Source of the DNA: Opitutia bacterium
Lineage (GTDB): Bacteria > Verrucomicrobiota > Verrucomicrobiia > Opitutales > Opitutaceae
Assembly: GCA_016187945.1 (NCBI GenBank)
Contig: JACPIT010000002.1
Location: 62,001-126,000, forward strand
Direction of reading: 5' to 3'
Length of the DNA stretch: 64,000 nucleotides
How positions within the stretch are numbered: position 1 is the stretch's first letter; the number at the start of each line of letters is the position of its first letter. The notes below the pieces were generated by a model. It did not search any database, had not been told where the DNA came from, and saw only the letters and a list, made by a program, of their open reading frames with translations. The translations under genes were made by a program, and so were the position numbers. Below, piece by piece: positions 13,862 through 55,824 of the stretch.

Positions 13862-13972
13862 GTAGCGCCGGTCTTCGACCGGCGAGAACCCATTTGAGAG
13901 CGAGCGGGATCAGGGAAGCGCGGGTGGCGGCGGCGGTGGACGTTCTTTCCGCCGGTCAGAGACCGGCGCTAC
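13862..13972. repeat. REP-like inverted pair, family G (CGCCGGTC); supplies a stop codon
   Basis: It opens GTAGCGCCGGTCTTCGACCG with a perfect CGCCGGTC-GACCGGCG hairpin and closes with GACCGGCGCTAC. The closing CTAC (13969-13972) contains, on the minus strand, the TAG stop of the neighbouring rRNA methyltransferase gene. Confidence 0.9.
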
Positions 13973-15120
13973 TTCTTTTTCCAGGTGGCGAGGAACATGC
14001 CGTTGGCGTTCAGTTCGTGCGGCTGGAGGAAAAGTTGAGAGCCGGGAGCGGAGGGCTGAGCGCCCGGGAAGACGGGGACGGGTTCAAATTCAGGGTGCGC
14101 GGCGGCGAAGGCGTCGGCGACGTCGGTGGTCTCGGCGCGCGTGAGCGTGCAGACGGAATAGACGAGGCGGCCGCCGGACTTCAGCGAGCTGGCGACGTGG
14201 TCGAGCAGGCGTTGTTGCACGGCGGCGAGTTCGCGGACGTCGGCGGGTTGCGTGGTCCAGCGCGCGTGCGGGTTGCGCTGCCAGGTGCCGACGCCGCTGC
14301 ACGGCGCGTCGACGAGCACACCGTCGAATTTGGTTTTCGTCGGGAGCTTGGCGGAGCCGTCCCACGGTGCGGTGCGGTAGTTGAACATGCCGGCGCGCGC
14401 GGCGCGTTTTTTCAGATGGTCGAGGCGGCGGACGGAGCGGTCGCTGGCCCAGAGGAGGCCTTTGTTCTGCATCAGATCGGAGAGATGCAGCGTCTTGCCG
14501 CCCTCGCCGGCGCAGGCGTCCCACCAAGTCTGGCCGGGCTGCGGCGCGCAGGCGTGGCCGACGAGTTGCGAGGCGAGGTCCTGGATTTCGAAGCGGCCGT
14601 CGCGGAATTCGTCGGTGAGAAACAGGTCGCGGGGGCCGGAGTAGCGAAAGGCGGAGAGTTGAGAGTTGAGGGTTGAGAGTTGAGAGCTGGGGGCGGGGGC
14701 GCAGTCGCCGAGGAGGGCGGGCAGGTTGGCGGCTTCGTTTTGTTTGGCGCGGAGCCAGAGGACGGGTTCGCGTTGGAGCTGGCGCAGCCAGTCGGGCGCG
14801 ACGTCCATCTCGGTTTTCAGCCAGTCGGGCACGGCGCGGGCGGCGAGCGCCTCGGCTTTGAACGACCCCGGTGCGCGGTCGAAGCGCGCCTGCAAATCGA
14901 GCGCGGCCGCGGCCTGTTTTTGCAGCGACTGTTTCGGCTCGAGCCAGCGCCACCAGCGGAAATACGCGAACACCGCGCGGCTGACGGCGCGGCGGAGCGC
15001 GGGGGCGGAGCCGTGGCGCGTGCGGCCAAGCGTCTCGCGCAGGGCGGCGTCGGCGGGCGTGCCGGTTTGCACGAGCTTCAGGACGCGCGCGGCTTCGTTG
15101 AGGAGGGCGGTGTCGGTCAC
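13969..15120 (-). CDS. NOL1/NOP2/Sun (RsmB-like) RNA cytosine-5 methyltransferase
   Basis: From GTG 15120 the protein has 383 residues. Diagnostic parts are the SAM motif region WWDACAGEGGKTLHLSD, motif IV VLVDAPCSGVGTWQRNP (catalytic Cys in PC) and motif VI VYSVCTLTRAET (second Cys), then a C-terminus NANGMFLATWKKK. These enzymes make m5C in rRNA or tRNA. An in-frame insert SSQLSTLNSQLSAF around residues 145-158 comes from a 7-bp-period repeat. The stop codon TAG belongs to a REP-like element. A longer N-terminus up to 15315 is possible but looks non-coding. Exact RNA target not determined. Confidence 0.88.
   Translation of the reverse strand: MTDTALLNEAARVLKLVQTGTPADAALRETLGRTRHGSAPALRRAVSRAVFAYFRWWRWLEPKQSLQKQAAAALDLQARFDRAPGSFKAEALAARAVPDWLKTEMDVAPDWLRQLQREPVLWLRAKQNEAANLPALLGDCAPAPSSQLSTLNSQLSAFRYSGPRDLFLTDEFRDGRFEIQDLASQLVGHACAPQPGQTWWDACAGEGGKTLHLSDLMQNKGLLWASDRSVRRLDHLKKRAARAGMFNYRTAPWDGSAKLPTKTKFDGVLVDAPCSGVGTWQRNPHARWTTQPADVRELAAVQQRLLDHVASSLKSGGRLVYSVCTLTRAETTDVADAFAAAHPEFEPVPVFPGAQPSAPGSQLFLQPHELNANGMFLATWKKK
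14654..14687. repeat. 7-bp-period repeat (GAGAGTT) within coding sequence
   Basis: Five near-copies of GAGAGTT/GAGGGTT in tandem. On the coding strand it reads Ser-Gln-Leu-Ser-Thr-Leu-Asn, in frame with the methyltransferase. The same heptamer is found twice in dnaE. Confidence 0.9.
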
Positions 15121-19557: not shown

Positions 19558-22500
19558 TTAGCTGCGTTTGCCCCAGCGGCGGACTTCTTTCAGCTCGGGG
19601 GCGCGGGTTTCGATCAGGGCGCCGGCGCAGGCGGGGTGGTTGCGGAGCGTTTGAAATGCCGGACCGGTGACGCGCCACTTCAATGCAAAGGACGTCTCGG
19701 CGATCGGCGCGACGCGGCCTTCGAAGAGGAAGGCGATCTCGACCTTCGTGTCGCCGTTGGCGGCGTCGATGGCTTTGCGGAGCTTCGGGAGAAAATCGGT
19801 GACGCCGGGGTGGTCGGGCGTGAGGAGCCAGGTGACTTTGCGGACGTTGTTCGGGAGATAGGCGTCGAGGTGGTAGACTTCCTTGATGTTCAGGCGCGCG
19901 CCGTCGTTGCCCTTCATCACCGAACCGAGGAGCGCGACGGGGATGTTTTCCGCGAGGAGCTTGCCGTAGGTCTCGTAGGCGTCGGCATACATGTTGACCG
20001 AGATCGTGGCGCGCTTGCTCGCGAGGTTGAAGAAGGCCCACGGGCGGTTGTCGCGTTTCGAGAGGCGCTTGGTGATGCCGCTGATGAGGCCGGTGAGGCG
20101 GAACTCGACGCGGTCGCCTTCGAGGAGAACGGTTTCCTCGGTGTGCGTGCAGAGCGCTTCGGCGAGGCCGGCGTAGGCGTTGAGCGGGTGGCCTGAGACG
20201 TAGAAGCCGAGGAGTTCTTTCTCGAATTGGAGACGCTCTTGGGCACTGAAGTCGGTGGCGGAGTCGGACGAGTTGAGAGTTGAGGGTTGAGAGTTGAGAG
20301 ACTTGGCAGCGGATTTTTTCTTCGGTTTCTCGTCGGCGAGCATGTCCAGGAACGAGTGCTGGCCGGCGGCTTTGTCCCGGGCGTGGGCGGCGGCGCCGGC
20401 GAGGGCGGCGTCGATGCCGTCGAAGAGCGGCTTGCGCGGCGCGTGGCTGTAGTCGAAGGCGCCGGTCTTCACGAGGTGTTCGAGCACGCGCTTGTTGATC
20501 GCGCGGCCGTCGACGCGGCGCACGAAGTCCTCGAAGTCGGCGAAGGGGCCGTTGGCTTCGCGTTCCTCGATGATTTTCGCGGCGGCGAGTTCGCCGACGC
20601 CCTTGATGCCGGCGAGGCCGAAGCGGATCGCGCCGCCTTCGGCGGCGCGATCCGTGGTTGAGAGTTGAGGGTTGAGAGTTGAGAGACTGGAGGATTGGGA
20701 GCCTTTCTGGCTCTCAACTCTCAACTCTGAACTCTCAACTTTCTTCACCACCGGCGTGAAATCCCCACGAGACTCGTTCACATCCGGGCCCAGCACTACG
20801 ATCCCCATGGCTTCGGCTTCGGCGATGAAGTGGGAGACTTTTTCCGCGTTGCCGAGTTCGGCGGTGAGCACAGCGGCCATGAACTCGACGGGGTAGTTCG
20901 CCTTGAGAAACGCCGTCTGGTAGCTGACGAGCGCGTAGGAGGCGGAGTGGGATTTGTTGAAACCGTAGTTCGCGAACTTGTTCAGCAGGTCGAAGATTTC
21001 GTTGGCCTTCGCTTCGCTGATGTTGTTCACGCGCTTCGCGCCTTCGACGAACTTGATGCGCTCCTTCGCCATCGCGTCGGCGTCCTTCTTACCCATCGCG
21101 CGGCGGAGCATGTCGGCGCCGCCGAGCGTGTAGCCGGCGATGATTTTGGCGCACTCCATGACCTGCTCTTGGTAGACGATGATACCGTAGGTTTCCTTGA
21201 GCGACTGTTCGAGGAGTGGATGCGGGTAGGCGACGGTGGACGGGTCGCGTTTGCCGCGGGCGTAGTCGGGGATGAATTGCATCGGGCCCGGGCGGTAGAG
21301 GGCGCAGATGGCGTTGATGTCGTTGATGTCGGTCACGCCGACCTGCTTGCAGGCGTTCTGCATGCCGCCGGATTCGAGCTGGAACACGCCGACGGTCTTG
21401 CCGGCGTTGAGGATCGCGTAGGTTTTCGGGTCGTCGAGCGGGATGGTCTCGATGTCGAAGTCGGGTTTCGCGGTGCGGCGGACGTTTTTCACGGCGTCGT
21501 CGATGACGGTGAGCGTCTTCAGGCCGAGGAAGTCCATCTTCAGCAAGCCGAGTTTGCCGACGGCGTTCATGTCGTATTGCACCGTCACGTCGCCTTCCTG
21601 GAGCGTGAGCGGGACGAACTCGTCGAGCGGTTTGTCGGTGATGATGATGCCGGCGGCGTGCTTGCCGGTGTTGCGCACCATGCCTTCGAGGACGAGGCCC
21701 TGATCGAGGATTTTGTGCGCGACGGGGTTTTTTTCGTATTCGTTTTTGAGCTCCGCGGATTTCTCCATCGCGGACTTCAGCTCGATGTTGAGCTCGTCGG
21801 GGATCATCTTCGCGAGGCGGTCGGCTTCGGCGAAGGGCAGGTCGTGCACGCGCGAGACGTCGCGCACGACCATCTTCGCGCCGAGCGTGCCGTAGGTGAT
21901 GATGTTCGCGACGCAATCGTTGCCGTATTTCTGACGGACGTAGTCGATGACCTCGCCGCGACGGCGCATGCAGAAGTCGATATCGAAGTCGGGCGGCGAC
22001 ACGCGCTCGGGGTTGAGGAAGCGCTCGAAGAGGAGCTTGAAGCGAATCGGGTCGAGATTGGTGATGCCGAGCAGATACGCGACGAGGCATCCGGCGCCGG
22101 AGCCGCGGCCGGGGCCGACAGGGATGCCGTGCGATTTCGCCCAGTGGATGAAATCCCAAACGACGAGGAAGTAGTCGATGAAGCCGGTGACGCGGATGAT
22201 CGAGAGCTCGAAGGCAAGGCGAACGACGAGTTCCTCTTCGAGCGGCAGGCCGTTGTAGTCGGGCGCGGTCGGTTTCTGGCCGGCGGGGAGATTCGTGAGT
22301 TTCGCGAGGCGCTCGGCGACGCTCGGGCGCGCGGCGATCTCGGCGTAGTTGTAGCCGTAGCGTTTCTTCAGACCTTCGACGCAGAGCTGGTCGAGGTATT
22401 CGCCGGGCGTGAGCTGGTCCTTGATTTCGGCGGGAAGCGGATACTTCGGGTAGCGCTCGGAGCCTTTCGGAAAGGGGATGATGCCCGTCTCGCACATTTC

Positions 22501-23325
22501 GGCGACGGCTTGGGTGTTCGTGAGCGAGTCGGGGACTTCGCCGAAAATTTTCGCCATCTCGTCGCGCGACTTCAGGTAGAATTGCGTGCCGTCGAACTTC
22601 ATGCGGTCCGTCTCGGCGACCTTCGCGCCGGTTTGGATGCAGAGGAGCGAGTCGTGCGGGCCGGCGTCTTCGTGGTTCACGTAGTGAACGTCGTTCGTGC
22701 AGATGACTTTTAGGCCGAACTCCTCGCCGAGTTTCAGCAGGCCGGGGATGATTTTGCGCTGCTCGGGGATGCCGTGGTCCTGGATTTCGACGAAGAAATT
22801 TTCGCGGCCGAAGATTTCCACGAAGCGCCCGCAGGCGAGGCGCGCCTGTTCGTAGCGGTCGTGGAGCAGGTGCTGCGGCACGATCGCGGCGAGGCAGCCG
22901 GTGAAGCCGATGAGGCCGCCGGAGTGGCGCGCGAGCGTGTCCATGTCGGCGCGCGGCTTGTAGTAAAAGCCCTTGAGATGCGCGTAAGAGACGAGCTTCA
23001 GGAGGTTTTGGTAGCCCTGAAGATTCTTCGCGAGCAGCCCCATGTGGTAGTAGCTCTTGCCGTCCTCGGAGCGGCCGGCCTTTTCGAGCGCGGAGCCTTC
23101 GGTGAGATAAATTTCGCAGCCGATGAGCGGCTTGATGCCGTAGGTTTTCGCGGCGTTGTAGAACTCGATCGCGCCATACATGTTGCCGTGGTCGGTGAGC
23201 GCGAGGGCGGTCATGCCCAGATCCTTGGCGCGGCCCATCAGGCGGTCGATGCGGCACGCGCCGTCGAGTAGGCTGTAGTCGGTGTGGACGTGAAGATGGA
23301 TGAAATTGGTGTCTGAGGCGGCCAC
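19558..23325 (-). CDS. dnaE: DNA polymerase III alpha subunit with two in-frame repeat insertions
   Basis: From GTG 23325 the protein has 1255 residues. The N-terminal PHP domain starts FIHLHVHTDYSLLDGACRID; the polymerase palm has GPGRGSGAG and PPDFDIDFCMRRRGE (catalytic Asp pair). Helix-hairpin-helix and OB-fold regions follow. It is the replicative polymerase catalytic subunit. Two segments interrupt conserved sequence: about residue 860-895 (SSELRVESQ, later SSLSTLNPQLS) and about 1005-1017 (SLNSQPSTLNSS). Both are translations of the GAGAGTT heptamer repeat. The first is a perfect-looking DNA hairpin. A TTG at 23379 would add 18 residues; GTG is preferred because it places the PHP motif at the usual distance. 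Confidence 0.95.
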   Translation of the reverse strand: MAASDTNFIHLHVHTDYSLLDGACRIDRLMGRAKDLGMTALALTDHGNMYGAIEFYNAAKTYGIKPLIGCEIYLTEGSALEKAGRSEDGKSYYHMGLLAKNLQGYQNLLKLVSYAHLKGFYYKPRADMDTLARHSGGLIGFTGCLAAIVPQHLLHDRYEQARLACGRFVEIFGRENFFVEIQDHGIPEQRKIIPGLLKLGEEFGLKVICTNDVHYVNHEDAGPHDSLLCIQTGAKVAETDRMKFDGTQFYLKSRDEMAKIFGEVPDSLTNTQAVAEMCETGIIPFPKGSERYPKYPLPAEIKDQLTPGEYLDQLCVEGLKKRYGYNYAEIAARPSVAERLAKLTNLPAGQKPTAPDYNGLPLEEELVVRLAFELSIIRVTGFIDYFLVVWDFIHWAKSHGIPVGPGRGSGAGCLVAYLLGITNLDPIRFKLLFERFLNPERVSPPDFDIDFCMRRRGEVIDYVRQKYGNDCVANIITYGTLGAKMVVRDVSRVHDLPFAEADRLAKMIPDELNIELKSAMEKSAELKNEYEKNPVAHKILDQGLVLEGMVRNTGKHAAGIIITDKPLDEFVPLTLQEGDVTVQYDMNAVGKLGLLKMDFLGLKTLTVIDDAVKNVRRTAKPDFDIETIPLDDPKTYAILNAGKTVGVFQLESGGMQNACKQVGVTDINDINAICALYRPGPMQFIPDYARGKRDPSTVAYPHPLLEQSLKETYGIIVYQEQVMECAKIIAGYTLGGADMLRRAMGKKDADAMAKERIKFVEGAKRVNNISEAKANEIFDLLNKFANYGFNKSHSASYALVSYQTAFLKANYPVEFMAAVLTAELGNAEKVSHFIAEAEAMGIVVLGPDVNESRGDFTPVVKKVESSELRVESQKGSQSSSLSTLNPQLSTTDRAAEGGAIRFGLAGIKGVGELAAAKIIEEREANGPFADFEDFVRRVDGRAINKRVLEHLVKTGAFDYSHAPRKPLFDGIDAALAGAAAHARDKAAGQHSFLDMLADEKPKKKSAAKSLNSQPSTLNSSDSATDFSAQERLQFEKELLGFYVSGHPLNAYAGLAEALCTHTEETVLLEGDRVEFRLTGLISGITKRLSKRDNRPWAFFNLASKRATISVNMYADAYETYGKLLAENIPVALLGSVMKGNDGARLNIKEVYHLDAYLPNNVRKVTWLLTPDHPGVTDFLPKLRKAIDAANGDTKVEIAFLFEGRVAPIAETSFALKWRVTGPAFQTLRNHPACAGALIETRAPELKEVRRWGKRS
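20271..20300. repeat. 7-bp-period repeat within dnaE, second insert
   Basis: Tandem GTTGAGA/GTTGAGG units, read in frame as SLNSQPSTLNS-like sequence on the dnaE strand. The polymerase sequence resumes normally on both sides. Confidence 0.9.
20657..20742. repeat. heptamer-repeat hairpin within dnaE, first insert
   Basis: The left arm is four GTTGAGA-type units, the right arm CTCTCAACTCTCAACTCTGA and onward. The arms are complementary and about 25 bases apart, so the insert can fold as one long hairpin. It stays in frame across dnaE. Confidence 0.92.
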
Positions 23326-23423
23326 GGGGCCGCATCGGAAGCCGCGCGCCAGAGGCCCGCAAGTGGAAACACCCGACAACTTGCCGACAGGCGAAGTTCG
23401 TTCATGCGTGGGACGTTAAACAG

Positions 23424-23930: not shown

Positions 23931-24884
23931 ATGAAGCCGATCCTCTCGCTGTCTAGCTGCTGGTTGTCCCAGCGCCATCAGGACGGCTACGAGATGCTCA
24001 AGGAAATGGCCGCACTCGGCTTCGAGTGGGCCGAGCTCAGCCACGGCATCCGTATCACGCTTGTGCCCGGCATCCTGAAGGGCGTCGAGGAAGGCATCAT
24101 CAAAATCTCCTCGTGTCACAATTTCTGCCCGCTGCCGACGGGCATCACGCACGCCGCGCCGAATCTCTACGTGCCGAGTTCCAAGGATCGCCGCGAGCGC
24201 GAGCAATGGCTGCGCCACAGCCGCCGCTCGGTCGAGTTCGCGAGCCAGGTCGGAGCGAAGAAACTCGTGCTGCACCTCGGCAATTTCGAGTTCTTCTGGC
24301 TGAATCCCGTGCGCAAGATCGAGCGCTACGTCGACGCGCATCCCGGCGAAGACCTCACGAAGGACGCCGCCTACCAGAAGCTTCTCGCCGGCGTGATGGC
24401 GAAGCTGCGCGCCCACAAAGCGCTGTTCTGGGAATACACGCGCGCCGGCATCGCGGAGCTGTTGCCCTACGCCACGAGCAAGGGCGTCGCGCTCGCCTTC
24501 GAAAACCGCGAGAAACTCGAGGAGCTGCCGCTCGACGAGGACTACCAGCAATTCATCGAATCGCTCCCGCCCGAAGCGCTCGGCGGCTACTGGCACGACA
24601 CCGGCCACGCGCACATCAAGGAAAGCCTCGGCGTCCTGAATCACCGCGAGCACCTGACGAAAAACGCGCCGCGCGCGATCGGCTTTCACCTGCACGACGT
24701 CAGTGCCGACGGCCACGACCACCAGGCAGTAGGGTCGGGCAAAGTGGACTTCGCGATGATCAGCGAATTCTGGCGCCCCGAGCACACGCTCGTGCTGGAG
24801 TTCAGCCCGCGCCTGACGGTCGAGGAAGTGATCGTGTCGAAGCAGCGCGTCGAGACGCTGCTGAAGCACCGGTTCGGGGGGTAG
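23931..24884 (+). CDS. TIM-barrel (AP endonuclease family 2) sugar isomerase-like protein
   Basis: A 317-residue protein beginning MKPILSLSSCWLSQRHQDGY. It has the xylose isomerase-like TIM-barrel layout (PF01261): GFEWAELSHG in strand 2, KKLVLHLGNFEFFW, GVALAFENREKL with the metal Glu, YWHDTGHAHIK with Asp/His metal ligands, IGFHLHDVSADGHDH, and LVLEFSPR. Such proteins isomerise or epimerise sugars or inosose, usually with a divalent metal; the substrate here is unknown. The TAG stop is part of the GTAG of a REP-like element that also ends the convergent mutY. No operon partner. Confidence 0.88.
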   Translation: MKPILSLSSCWLSQRHQDGYEMLKEMAALGFEWAELSHGIRITLVPGILKGVEEGIIKISSCHNFCPLPTGITHAAPNLYVPSSKDRREREQWLRHSRRSVEFASQVGAKKLVLHLGNFEFFWLNPVRKIERYVDAHPGEDLTKDAAYQKLLAGVMAKLRAHKALFWEYTRAGIAELLPYATSKGVALAFENREKLEELPLDEDYQQFIESLPPEALGGYWHDTGHAHIKESLGVLNHREHLTKNAPRAIGFHLHDVSADGHDHQAVGSGKVDFAMISEFWRPEHTLVLEFSPRLTVEEVIVSKQRVETLLKHRFGG

Positions 24885-24973
24885 GGCCGGCTTCAGCCGG
24901 CCCGGGTGAAAGCAGGTTCGCGGTCTTCGGCTGCGAACGCTGCCGCTGATGGTCCGGCTGAAGCCGGACCTAC
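24881..24973. repeat. REP-like inverted pair, family D; supplies stops of both flanking genes
   Basis: It opens GTAGGGCCGGCTTCAGCCGG and closes CCGGCTGAAGCCGGACCTAC; both arms are near-perfect hairpins. TAG at 24882-24884 ends the TIM-barrel gene. CTA at 24970-24972, read on the minus strand as TAG, ends mutY. Confidence 0.93.
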
Positions 24974-26037
24974 CTCAGCAATTCCGCGATCCAGCGCTTG
25001 TGCGGGCCGGAGAGCGTGACGCGGTCGAGGTCGTCGCGCGCGACCCACTCGAGCGTGCCGTCGGCGGCGATGCGTTTGCGCAACGCGGCGTCGGGCTTCA
25101 CGGCGAAAATCTGCTCGGTGATCTGAAAGCGCGTGATCGTGCGGCGCTTCGTGGCGAGCAACGCGGAGGCGTCGGGCTTCACGCCGAGGTCGTGCGCTTC
25201 GGGCAATTCGTGCACGCCGGCGAGCCGCTTCGCGTCCGCGCTGCCACGGCGCAGCAGGAGGCGTCCGCGCTCCAGGACGAAAGTCCGTATTACGGACTTT
25301 TGCTCGATCTGCTTCGGCGCGAAACGGGGGAGCGACTCGGCATTGCCGGCGCGGCGCGCGGCGCAGAACCCGGCGACGGGGCAGGTGAGGCAGAGCGGCT
25401 TCACGCGGAAGCAGACGGTCGCGCCCAGTTCCATCATTGCCTGGTTGTGCGTGCCGGGGTCGCACGTTGGTGCGGCATCGCCGCGCGACGTGGCGCCGGC
25501 GATTAGCGCGTCGGCGAGTGGCGTGAAGTGTTTCGCGGCGTCCACGCCCGTGGCGAAGCGCTTCGTTTCGCCCGTGAGGCGCGCGAGGATGCGCACGACG
25601 TTGCCGTCGACGCACGCGGCGGGTTCGCCGAACGCGATGCTCGTGATCGCCGCGGACGTGTAGGGGCCGATGCCGGGCAACTCGCGCCACGCGGCCGGCG
25701 TGCGCGGCGGGGCGGGCATTGCGGCGACGGCTTGCGCGAGCTTGTGGAGGTTGCGCGCGCGCGAGTAGTAGCCGAGGCCTTCCCAGAGTTTTAGCACCTT
25801 CGCTTCGGGCGCGGCGGCGAGCGCGGCGAAATCCGGCAACTCCCGCAGCCAGCGGTCGAAGTAGGGCAACACCGTCGCGACCTGCGTCTGCTGCAGCATG
25901 AACTCCGACACGACCGTCTTGTAGAGCGACGGCGCCTCGCGCCACGGCAGGCGCCGCTGGTGCACTCGATACCAGTCGTGGAGCGCGGCCTGAAATTCGG
26001 TGCGGCGGGCGATGAGTTGCGCGGAAGGATTGGCCAC
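24970..26037 (-). CDS. mutY: A/G-specific adenine glycosylase MutY
   Basis: A 355-residue enzyme that removes adenine mispaired with 8-oxoguanine. RLPWRE and EFMLQQTQVATVLPYF open the glycosylase domain. LPGIGPYTSAAITSIAFGE is the helix-hairpin-helix, VDGNVVRILARL carries the catalytic Asp region, and CFRVKPLCLTCPVAGFC with an earlier Cys forms the 4Fe-4S loop (C-X6-C-X2-C-X5-C type). The C-terminal part (about 235-355) is NUDIX-like, for 8-oxoG recognition. The start is GTG 26037, which lies in a repeat arm (GGCCACGAAGAGGCACGAG on the plus strand). The stop is provided by a REP-like element. Confidence 0.95.
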   Translation of the reverse strand: MANPSAQLIARRTEFQAALHDWYRVHQRRLPWREAPSLYKTVVSEFMLQQTQVATVLPYFDRWLRELPDFAALAAAPEAKVLKLWEGLGYYSRARNLHKLAQAVAAMPAPPRTPAAWRELPGIGPYTSAAITSIAFGEPAACVDGNVVRILARLTGETKRFATGVDAAKHFTPLADALIAGATSRGDAAPTCDPGTHNQAMMELGATVCFRVKPLCLTCPVAGFCAARRAGNAESLPRFAPKQIEQKSVIRTFVLERGRLLLRRGSADAKRLAGVHELPEAHDLGVKPDASALLATKRRTITRFQITEQIFAVKPDAALRKRIAADGTLEWVARDDLDRVTLSGPHKRWIAELLR

Positions 26038-27310: not shown

Positions 27311-28093
27311 ATGCCGGTGAAACGTCGACAACTTCGCGGGTTCGACCTCAAGCAGATCTACGGCTTCGAGGGACTCATCGGCGTCGACGAGGCCGGGCGA
27401 GGGGCGTTGGCCGGACCGGTCGTGGCGGGCGCCGTGCTCGTGTCGCGCGAATTTCTCGAGGGAAAATGGGCCGTGACGAAGGGCGGGCGCGTCAACGACT
27501 CGAAACAGCTCAGCGCGGAGGAACGCGCGGCGTTGTGGGCGGAGTTCGACGAACTGGCGCACGCCGGACAGATTCACGCGACCTTCGGCGTCGCGAGCGT
27601 TGCGGAGATCGAGACGCTCAACATTCTCGGCGCGACCAAGCTCGCGATGCGCCGCGCGCTGGAGCAAATTTATCCGCCGACGGCGTTCGAGCGGAAAACG
27701 GAGCCGGACCTTTTCGCGAGCGAGGCGGAGCGGTCCGCGTTTCAGCCGACGGTCTCGTGCAAGGTGCTCGTCGACGGCTTGCCGCTGCGGCATTTTCCGT
27801 ATCCGCACGAGGGGCTGGTGAACGGCGACGCGCGTTCGCTGTGCATCGCGATGGCGTCGATCATCGCGAAGGTGACGCGGGACCGGATGATGGACGAACT
27901 CGACAAGGTGCACGCCGGCTACGGCTTCGCGCAGCACAAAGGCTACGGCACCGAGGAGCACCGCGAGGCGGTGTTGCGGCTCGGGCGCTGCATCGCGCAC
28001 CGGGACAGTTTCCTGAGGAAGCTCTTCGCGCAGCCGCGCGACCTCGAAGGGCAGTTGACGTTCTTCGGCGAGGGCGCGGCGCCGGAGCTGTAG
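27311..28093 (+). CDS. rnhB: ribonuclease HII
   Basis: A 260-residue enzyme starting MPVKRRQLRGFDLKQIYGFE. The catalytic Asp-Glu pair is in LIGVDEAGRGALAGPVVAGA; RVNDSKQLSAEERAALW and the later VLVDGLPLRHFP and CIAMASIIAKVTRDRMM supply the other acidic residues. It cuts at ribonucleotides embedded in DNA. An insert of about 20 residues (IYPPTAFERKTEPDLFAS) lengthens it against the usual 200-220. Its TAG stop is the TAG of the GTAG that opens a family A REP-like element. Upstream in-frame sequence overlaps rnhC in another phase and is rejected. Confidence 0.95.
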   Translation: MPVKRRQLRGFDLKQIYGFEGLIGVDEAGRGALAGPVVAGAVLVSREFLEGKWAVTKGGRVNDSKQLSAEERAALWAEFDELAHAGQIHATFGVASVAEIETLNILGATKLAMRRALEQIYPPTAFERKTEPDLFASEAERSAFQPTVSCKVLVDGLPLRHFPYPHEGLVNGDARSLCIAMASIIAKVTRDRMMDELDKVHAGYGFAQHKGYGTEEHREAVLRLGRCIAHRDSFLRKLFAQPRDLEGQLTFFGEGAAPEL

Positions 28094-28164
28094 GAGCGGC
28101 TTTACGCCGCGATTCGAACACGGCGTGCGCTTCGAACCAATCGCGGCGTAAAGCCGCTCCTACA
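28089..28164. repeat. REP-like inverted pair, family A, copy 2; supplies rnhB stop
   Basis: It opens TGTAGGAGCGGCTTTACGCC and closes GGCGTAAAGCCGCTCCTACA. GTAG at 28090-28093 contains the rnhB stop. Confidence 0.95.
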
Positions 28165-31188: not shown

Positions 31189-31264
31189 TGTAGGAGCGGC
31201 TTTATGCCGCGATCGGTTCAATGCGCGCGCGACGTTCGAATCGCGGCGTAAAGCCGCTCCTACA
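31189..31264. repeat. REP-like inverted pair, family A, copy 4
   Basis: It opens TGTAGGAGCGGCTTTATGCC and closes GGCGTAAAGCCGCTCCTACA. It is followed after a 23-base spacer by a family B pair, the same order and spacing as at 41432. Confidence 0.94.
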
Positions 31265-31287: not shown

Positions 31288-31349
31288 GTAGCGCGGTGCT
31301 TTAGCCTGCACCGAAAAATGCTCCAGCACGGGCTAAAGCACCGCGCTAC
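31288..31349. repeat. REP-like inverted pair, family B, copy 1
   Basis: It opens GTAGCGCGGTGCTTTAGCC and closes GGCTAAAGCACCGCGCTAC. It forms a composite with the family A copy before it. Confidence 0.93.
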
Positions 31350-41431: not shown

Positions 41432-41507
41432 TGTAGGAGCGGCTTTATGCCGCGATTGGTGCGAAGCGCATGCCGCGTTCGGATCGCGGCGTAAAGCCGC
41501 TCCTACA
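41432..41507. repeat. REP-like inverted pair, family A, copy 5
   Basis: It opens TGTAGGAGCGGCTTTATGCC and closes GGCGTAAAGCCGCTCCTACA, followed after 24 bases by a family B pair as at 31189. Confidence 0.94.
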
Positions 41508-41531: not shown

Positions 41532-41593
41532 GTAGCGCGGTGCTTTAGCCCGCGTCTGGGGATTTTTCAGCGCGGGCTGAAGCACCGCGCTAC
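41532..41593. repeat. REP-like inverted pair, family B, copy 2
   Basis: It opens GTAGCGCGGTGCTTTAGCCC and closes GGCTGAAGCACCGCGCTAC. It is the second half of a composite with the preceding family A copy. Confidence 0.93.
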
Positions 41594-45677: not shown

Positions 45678-46409
45678 ATGCGAATCACGCCGGTGGGCGA
45701 CAACGCGCTGCGGATCGAACTGGGGGCGGCGATCGACGAGGCCACGCAACGCAGCGTGCAAGCGGCGTGTGCCGGACTCGATGCGGCGGCGATCCCCGGC
45801 TTCACCGAACTCGTGCCCGCTTACACGACCGTCACCGCGCACTACGATCCGGGCGCGGTCGTGGCGGCGGGTGCGCCCGCGGACGACATCGTGGGCTGGC
45901 TGATGACGCGCGCCGAGCTCGCTTTGAAAAGCCTGCCTGCCAAACCGGCGCGTCAGGGCAAGACGGTCGAGATTCCGGTGTGTTACGGCGGCGAGTTCGG
46001 GCCCGACCTTCCGCGCGTCGCGGCGCAGGCCAAGCTGTCGCCGGAAGAGGTCGTGCGGCGACACGCCGCGGGGAATTACGTCGTGCACTTGGTCGGTTTT
46101 GCGCCGGGCTTTCCGTATCTCGGCGGCATGGACGTGGCGCTGGCGACGCCGCGGCTCGCGCAACCGCGCGCGCAAGTGCCGGCCGGCTCGGTGGGCATCG
46201 CAGGAGCGCAAACCGGCGTGTATCCGCTCGCGACGCCCGGCGGCTGGAACCTGATCGGCCGCACGCCGGTGAAACTCTTCCGCCCCGAGGAGAATCCGCC
46301 GGTGCTGTTGCAGGCGGGAGATCGCGTAAGGTTTCGCGCGATCGAGGCGAACGAGTGGAGGCGAGAAGAGGAAAGCTCCAAGCTCCAACATCCAAGCTCC
46401 AGAGAATGA
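45678..46409 (+). CDS. pxpB: 5-oxoprolinase subunit PxpB (KipI-like)
   Basis: A 243-residue protein starting MRITPVGDNALRIELG. It has the KipI/PxpB core: VEIPVCYGGEFGPDLPRVAA, VVHLVGFAPGFPYLGG, then PRAQVPAGSVGIAGAQTGVY and TPGGWNLIGRTPVKLF. With PxpA and PxpC it opens 5-oxoproline to glutamate using ATP. It is the first gene of the pyroglutamate locus. The C-terminal tail after VRFRAIEANEWRR is SSKLQHPSSRE and is encoded by the left arm of a 163-bp repeat element, which also supplies the stop codon. Confidence 0.95.
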   Translation: MRITPVGDNALRIELGAAIDEATQRSVQAACAGLDAAAIPGFTELVPAYTTVTAHYDPGAVVAAGAPADDIVGWLMTRAELALKSLPAKPARQGKTVEIPVCYGGEFGPDLPRVAAQAKLSPEEVVRRHAAGNYVVHLVGFAPGFPYLGGMDVALATPRLAQPRAQVPAGSVGIAGAQTGVYPLATPGGWNLIGRTPVKLFRPEENPPVLLQAGDRVRFRAIEANEWRREEESSKLQHPSSRE

Positions 46410-46535
46410 CCAAACCGATGAAACCACGAAGGCACAAAAGCACAAAGTCGGAGGCTCCCTCCGTGTCTCTGTGCCTTTGTGGTTCATCTTCGCTTTGGTG
46501 TTTCTGTGGAGCTTGGATGTTGGAGCTTGGAGCTT
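46373..46535. repeat. 163-bp inverted-repeat element, copy 1
   Basis: Left arm AAGCTCCAAGCTCCAACATC and onward; right arm GGAGCTTGGATGTTGGAGCT. Both are built of 7-bp units (AAGCTCC, AACATCC). Inside is a second pair, CACGAAGGCACAAAAGCAC against CTGTGCCTTTGTGGTTC. The same 163-base length and plan occurs at 50126-50288. Confidence 0.93.
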
Positions 46536-50125: not shown

Positions 50126-50288
50126 AAGCTCCAAGCTCCAACATCCAAGCTCCAGAGAAACACCAAACCGGAGATGAACCACAGAGCCACAAAGGCACAG
50201 AGCAGAACGGCGTCTTTGTGCCTCCGTGTCTTTGTGGTTTCATCGATCTTTCTATTCACTGGAGCTTGGATGTTGGAGCTTGGAGCTT
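50126..50288. repeat. 163-bp inverted-repeat element, copy 2
   Basis: Left arm AAGCTCCAAGCTCCAACATC, right arm TTGGATGTTGGAGCTTGGAG; the internal pair is ATGAACCACAGAGCCACAAA against TTTGTGCC and TTTGTGGTTTCAT. It covers most of the 234-base gap between DUF979 and pcp. Confidence 0.94.
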
Positions 50289-55754: not shown

Positions 55755-55824
55755 GTAGCAGCCGACGTGAGGAGGCTGGTGAACACGGCGCGGCGTTCGC
55801 CAGCCTTCTCACGTCGGCTGCTAC
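55755..55824. repeat. REP-like inverted pair, family C
   Basis: It opens GTAGCAGCCGACGTGAGGAG and closes CTCACGTCGGCTGCTAC. It is the main content of the 413-base gap 55648-56060; the rest before transketolase (GATGCGACCCGGCGCATGAC and an AT-richer leader) probably holds the tkt promoter, not identified. Confidence 0.9.

Follow-up and report, generated by a model that had tools for sequence, protein, structure and literature searches.

The window, by which we mean the whole 64,000-nucleotide stretch of contig JACPIT010000002.1 that was analysed, contains two genes that converge on a 93-bp repeat element. The plus-strand gene encodes a xylose-isomerase-like protein, and the minus-strand gene resembles mutY, matching TIGR01084 with 243 bits, which is under the NCBIfam cut-off of 286.5. 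The names TIM-barrel and mutY, given to the two genes in a preliminary description of the window, hold on these profile matches. The element opens with GTAG and closes with CTAC, and each end is a small hairpin located directly at its own tag. The stop codon of the TIM-barrel gene (TAG, 24882-24884) lies within the GTAG at 24881-24884, while that of mutY, read from 24972 down to 24970 on the minus strand, lies within the CTAC at 24970-24973. The coordinates and open reading frames thus bear out the earlier claim that a single element supplies the stop codons of both genes. The positions of these features, together with those of other repeat families in the window, are collected in Table 1.

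Table 1. Convergent genes, the repeat element between them and further REP families in the window
Feature	Position	Strand	Description
TIM-barrel gene	23931..24884	+	xylose-isomerase-like TIM-barrel protein, PF01261 AP_endonuc_2, 317 aa
mutY-like gene	24970..26037	-	A/G-specific adenine glycosylase, PF00730 HhH-GPD, TIGR01084, 355 aa
93-bp element	24881-24973		two-headed REP, REPIN-like dimer, GTAG superfamily, between two convergent genes
Left REP head	24881..24903	+	GTAG tag and hairpin, 8-bp stem GGGCCGGC, loop TTCA
Right REP head	24951..24973	-	GTAG tag and hairpin, 8-bp stem GGTCCGGC, loop TTCA
REP dimer spacer	24904..24950	none	variable, contains internal hairpin
Family B	8045, 28090-28163, 31190-31263, 41433-41506		REP family
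Family C	31288-31349, 41532-41593		REP family
Family D	2213, 10983, 52955, 55755-55824		REP family
Family F	13862-13972		REP family

Both ends of the element carry a GTAG tag followed by a short hairpin with an 8-bp stem. The inverted arms (24880-24903 and 24951-24974) were 92% complementary, and the 93 nt folded with -66.5 kcal/mol (z -7.2), a value that none of 200 shuffled sequences equalled. When the head was written as the pattern GTAGG-N(1-4)-CCGGCTTNAGCCGG (also GTAGG-N-CCGGCTTCAGCCGG), 90 exact copies of this family, termed family A, were found in the 5.47-Mb genome, compared to 0 for the reversed control pattern. These heads grouped into 71 sites, 19 of which carried two exact heads, and 15 of these 19 two-headed sites were 91-94 bp long. 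The variable base pair of the stem was complementary in 82 of the 90 heads (57 G-C, 14 A-T and 11 T-A). In contrast, only 8 of 19 dimers had the same variable base in their two heads. The conserved unit is thus the single-REP hairpin, which is the expected substrate of RAYT (REP-associated tyrosine transposase); a long two-arm hairpin as the conserved structure is ruled out by the poor agreement between dimer partners.

Family A has expanded in the lineage of the window's genome. G001 and G002 have one exact head each, and 11 other relatives have none; in the two nearest relatives, G001 and G007, which carry 1 and 0, the family is near-absent, and orthologous flanks exist there. The organism belongs to the Opitutaceae: the TIM-barrel gene is 87% and 85% identical in these two genomes of the same genus, and its nearest named records are Candidatus Didemnitutus MAGs (76%). 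As a separate observation, about 2.5 kb of sequence with family A REPs at its borders (L088:3989-6533, equal to G000:C10:196389-198933 in the window's genome) was absent from G001 and G007, where its flanks adjoin each other.

Family A consists of GTAG-tagged REPs in a REPIN/BIME dimer arrangement, and the element is therefore a member of a common kind of small bacterial repeat, ordinary in kind; its docking pattern is what makes it of interest. With the GTAG REP superfamily as a whole it shares the features given by Di Nocera et al. 2013 (PMC3733652): a GTAG beside a short GC-rich hairpin, high copy number, head-to-head dimers, and positions between convergent genes or behind unidirectional ones. 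GTAG repeats are abundant in Opitutus terrae according to the same text. Like the REPINs/BIMEs described by Bertels and Rainey 2011 (PMC3116915), family A consists of two inverted REPs with a spacer of near-fixed length; that work proposed the doublet as the mobile unit and placed the conserved 16-mers of SBW25 71 bp apart. The sequences differ between those repeats and family A.

To identify candidate transposases, the genome was searched for Y1_Tnp, which gave 8 matches. Two of these RAYT genes were flanked by REPs, L034 by GTAGGAGCGGCTTTACGCCGCG, a different REP family also present in the window, and L033 by GTAGCGCCGGTCTCCGACCGGCG; across the genome, RAYT flanks belonged to families B and F. 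In both genes (L034:1348-1863 and L033:1222-1815) the stop codon is the TAG contained in the GTAG tag of the immediately following REP, and members of that REP's family also precede each gene in inverted orientation. As judged from this arrangement, L034 and L033 appear to be two REPtrons in one genome, resembling the RAYT / TnpA-REP REPtrons of PMC2817692 and PMC8266576 in that these two Y1_Tnp genes are flanked by inverted GTAG REPs. Against NCBIfam REP_Tyr_transpos, the L034 protein scored 75.8 bits, under the cut-off of 80, and the L036 protein 90 bits. A third Y1_Tnp gene, L031, has a GGGCGATATTATATCGCCC palindrome just downstream. Family A flanked none of the eight Y1_Tnp genes within about 1.5 kb. 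The abstract of PMC8266576 calls the spread of REPs poorly understood.

Other repeats were also present in the window. At least four further GTAG REP families, often as dimers, were observed (Table 1), and the tags at 28090 and 13972 double as stop codons. Copies of GTTGAGAGTTGAGGG occur at 20272-20303, 20657-20688 and also 14658-14703; two of them lie inside the minus-strand ORF 19558-23379, adding LSTLNPQLSTT-like stretches to its protein. This ORF presumably represents a replicative DNA polymerase III alpha gene. Near-identical 45-bp AAGCTCCAAGCTCCAACATCC repeats are found 3.75 kb apart, at 46373-46417 and 50126-50170.

To assess how often a REP tag coincides with a stop codon, genes were called with our own simple codon-score gene finder, and same-direction stops within -250 to +100 nt of each family A head were counted. 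Such a stop was present for 62 of the 90 heads, always at offset 0 or a negative offset, and absent for the other 28; 3 ends lay inside genes. Family A is thus mostly extragenic and close to gene 3' ends, as in the GTAG REP superfamily. At 26 of the 62 testable ends the GTAG was exactly the stop codon, a count that includes a spurious-looking 64-aa ORF at C1:225582, which is absent from the orthologue table (25 genes, higher gene-score cut-off). At 10 further ends, a TGA stood directly or one base before the tag (offset -4 or -5). For the 50 ends with offsets of -30 to 0, the exact coincidence had a probability of about 1e-25 under a uniform model, and chance overlap of GTAG with a stop is ruled out. 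None of the 62 ends had its stop 1-100 nt inside the element, offsets being counted only to +100; because out-of-frame reading meets no stop anywhere in the element in 42 of 76 test frames, this absence is weaker than it looks. In the window itself, four of eight TAG stops (13971, 24882, 24972 and 28091) lie in REP tags of three families.

At least one end was exactly a stop at 25 of the 71 sites, and both ends at 1 of 71, the element at 24881-24973. The per-end rate is near 0.4, and six of the two-headed sites are tight and convergent; about one double case is expected from these figures, so no special cause is needed for it. The coincidence is also in agreement with earlier work: that the TAG stop of flanking ORFs is often provided by the termini of GTAG REPs was already in print in 2013 (PMC3733652), and in the two species examined there most convergent REPs lay no more than 20 bp from both flanking 3' ends.

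The portions of that paper considered here contain no comparison of orthologues or of empty sites. In a literature search that lay mostly outside subscription journals, we found no recognisable comparison of empty sites at stop codons. Among TIM-barrel orthologues of at least 65% identity, 21 of 25 share the final residue, whichever stop codon follows; in L045/L324 the gene ends there with TAG and no hairpin, and in G007 the stop is TGA. In L043/L322 (Ca. Didemnitutus MAG), mutY likewise has a TAG after the same final residue, the two stops being just 7 nt apart. For each gene taken separately, therefore, orthologues lacking the element share the end residue, some with a TAG of their own, which is the finding that the preliminary description had named as speaking against it. 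The preliminary description held that the element terminates translation of both neighbours; both TAGs do lie physically inside it, but the stronger reading, that the element is the reason the genes end here, is not supported by the orthologue sequences.

We further compared stop codons at genes ended by family A with those of orthologues in the two nearest relatives. Orthologues ending in TAG were found for 6 of 16 such genes versus 6 of 86 others in G001 (Fisher p 0.003) and for 3 of 13 versus 6 of 72 in G007 (p 0.14), where the background comprised genes of the compared stretches at whose stop no REP was detected, the gene sample of the window's genome (G000) was enriched for REP sites by construction, and the two comparisons are mutually dependent. 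When only same-residue ends were considered, with background genes ending in TAG in the window's genome excluded, TAG was found in G001 for 5 of 9 genes against 2 of 58 in the background (p 0.0002), and in G007 for 2 of 7 against 1 of 46 (p 0.04). In G001, four of the five TAGs are GTAG, and these could be marks of other REPs. At site C1:262132, the gene in G001 has an identical GAG-TAG end and no element behind it. For the ends at -4/-5, no GTAG follows directly after the stop in the relatives examined.

These results lead us to favour, as on balance the probable explanation, that a REP dimer docked onto pre-existing stops of both neighbours in a tight convergent gap. The dimer would be a short non-autonomous repeat, presumably moved by RAYT, and at least one of the stops it met, possibly both, would have been a G-TAG. 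We infer docking on existing stops because an insertion directed to a stop by GTAG does not alter the protein, and the higher frequency of TAG in relatives at REP-ended genes than in the background is consistent with it. Against docking, most relatives have TGA or TAA at genes ended by family A (10 of 16 in G001 and 10 of 13 in G007), and no RAYT flanked by family A itself turned up. In 5 of 16 and 4 of 13 pairs, moreover, the protein of the relative is longer, an excess over background that was not significant, so in some places the TAG of the element may have shortened or replaced a protein end.

A strong rival, which we nevertheless regard as rather unlikely, is imprecise insertion or REP-driven replacement of the spacer, followed by selection that keeps joins just behind the stop or with the TAG of the tag in frame. 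The pile-up of exact and -4/-5 ends at the stop would be accounted for in this way, as would the short gaps: non-REP sequence between the stops was at most 15 nt at 6 of 10 two-headed convergent sites, compared to 33 of 150 convergent spacers in G001. However, the enrichment of TAG in relatives is not predicted by this process alone, and docking remains the favoured account.

The view of the preliminary description, that the insertion brought the TAGs and thereby set or reset both protein ends, is unlikely. It agrees with the presence of the TAGs in the element, with the rarity of TAG in G001 (94 of 959 genes), and with the mutY of G001, which has TGA at the same end residue. Some genes ended by family A also show altered terminal codons, and their relatives encode longer proteins, with a maximum of 11 extra codons (C12:664374). 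On the other side, element-free orthologues share the end residue, and it is at these very genes that relatives carry an excess of TAG.

A further proposal, that the element terminates transcription of the two convergent genes in both directions, is quite improbable and found no positive support: its very stable hairpin and convergent position would suit such a role, but no intrinsic terminator (a GC hairpin followed by a T-run) was detected in the element on either strand, the only 2 matches lying outside it at 24664-24677, and family A copies also occur inside predicted genes (L084, G000:C9:1166760; L099, G000:C15:27433). Relative to the G001 alignment, the two-headed copy at L084 replaces a stretch of coding sequence.

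An effect on translation can also be considered. In E. coli, translation is lowered by REPs that lie no more than 15 nt from a stop codon (work cited in PMC12306157). As the stem starts within 2 nt of both stops here, mild damping of both proteins would be the most concrete prediction by analogy, and the hairpin 0-2 nt past the stop may slow the last translation steps of both genes.

To examine whether the same junction is affected in other Opitutaceae, 82 orthologous loci (80 named loci plus G001 and G007) were surveyed. The TIM-barrel stop was GTAG in 23 of the 82, with a hairpin behind it in 6; mutY was convergent in 61 loci, where its stop was GTAG in 14, 6 of these with a hairpin. Under a strict hairpin test, hairpins accompanied 4 of 23 GTAG stops versus 0 of 59 other stops of the TIM-barrel gene (p 0.005), and 3 of 14 versus 1 of 47 for mutY (p 0.03). 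The hairpins come from different sequence families. Other REP families have thus occupied this junction in other Opitutaceae, in one case at both stops. In that case, L329 (JANYAM010000263.1, Opitutus sp. MAG), an unrelated REP pair lying in a 46-nt spacer between the genes carries both stops, which appears to be an independent double case at the same gene junction; copies of its left and right heads numbered 3 and 2 in the examined stretches of the window's genome.

A broader reading, which we put forward only tentatively as a possibility, is that the stop codon serves as a safe harbour for RAYT/REP: a GTAG guide would pick G-TAG stops, including that of the transposase itself, insertions would spare proteins, and different families would dock independently on the same gene ends, sometimes on both convergent stops. 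Since one family occupies 71 sites in this genome and is almost missing from close relatives, a natural before/after comparison is available. For annotators, a stop that overlaps a REP should not be taken for a sign of a truncated or altered protein. If GTAG truly selects G-TAG stops, the genetic code itself would provide a mobile element with a target that is neutral for coding.
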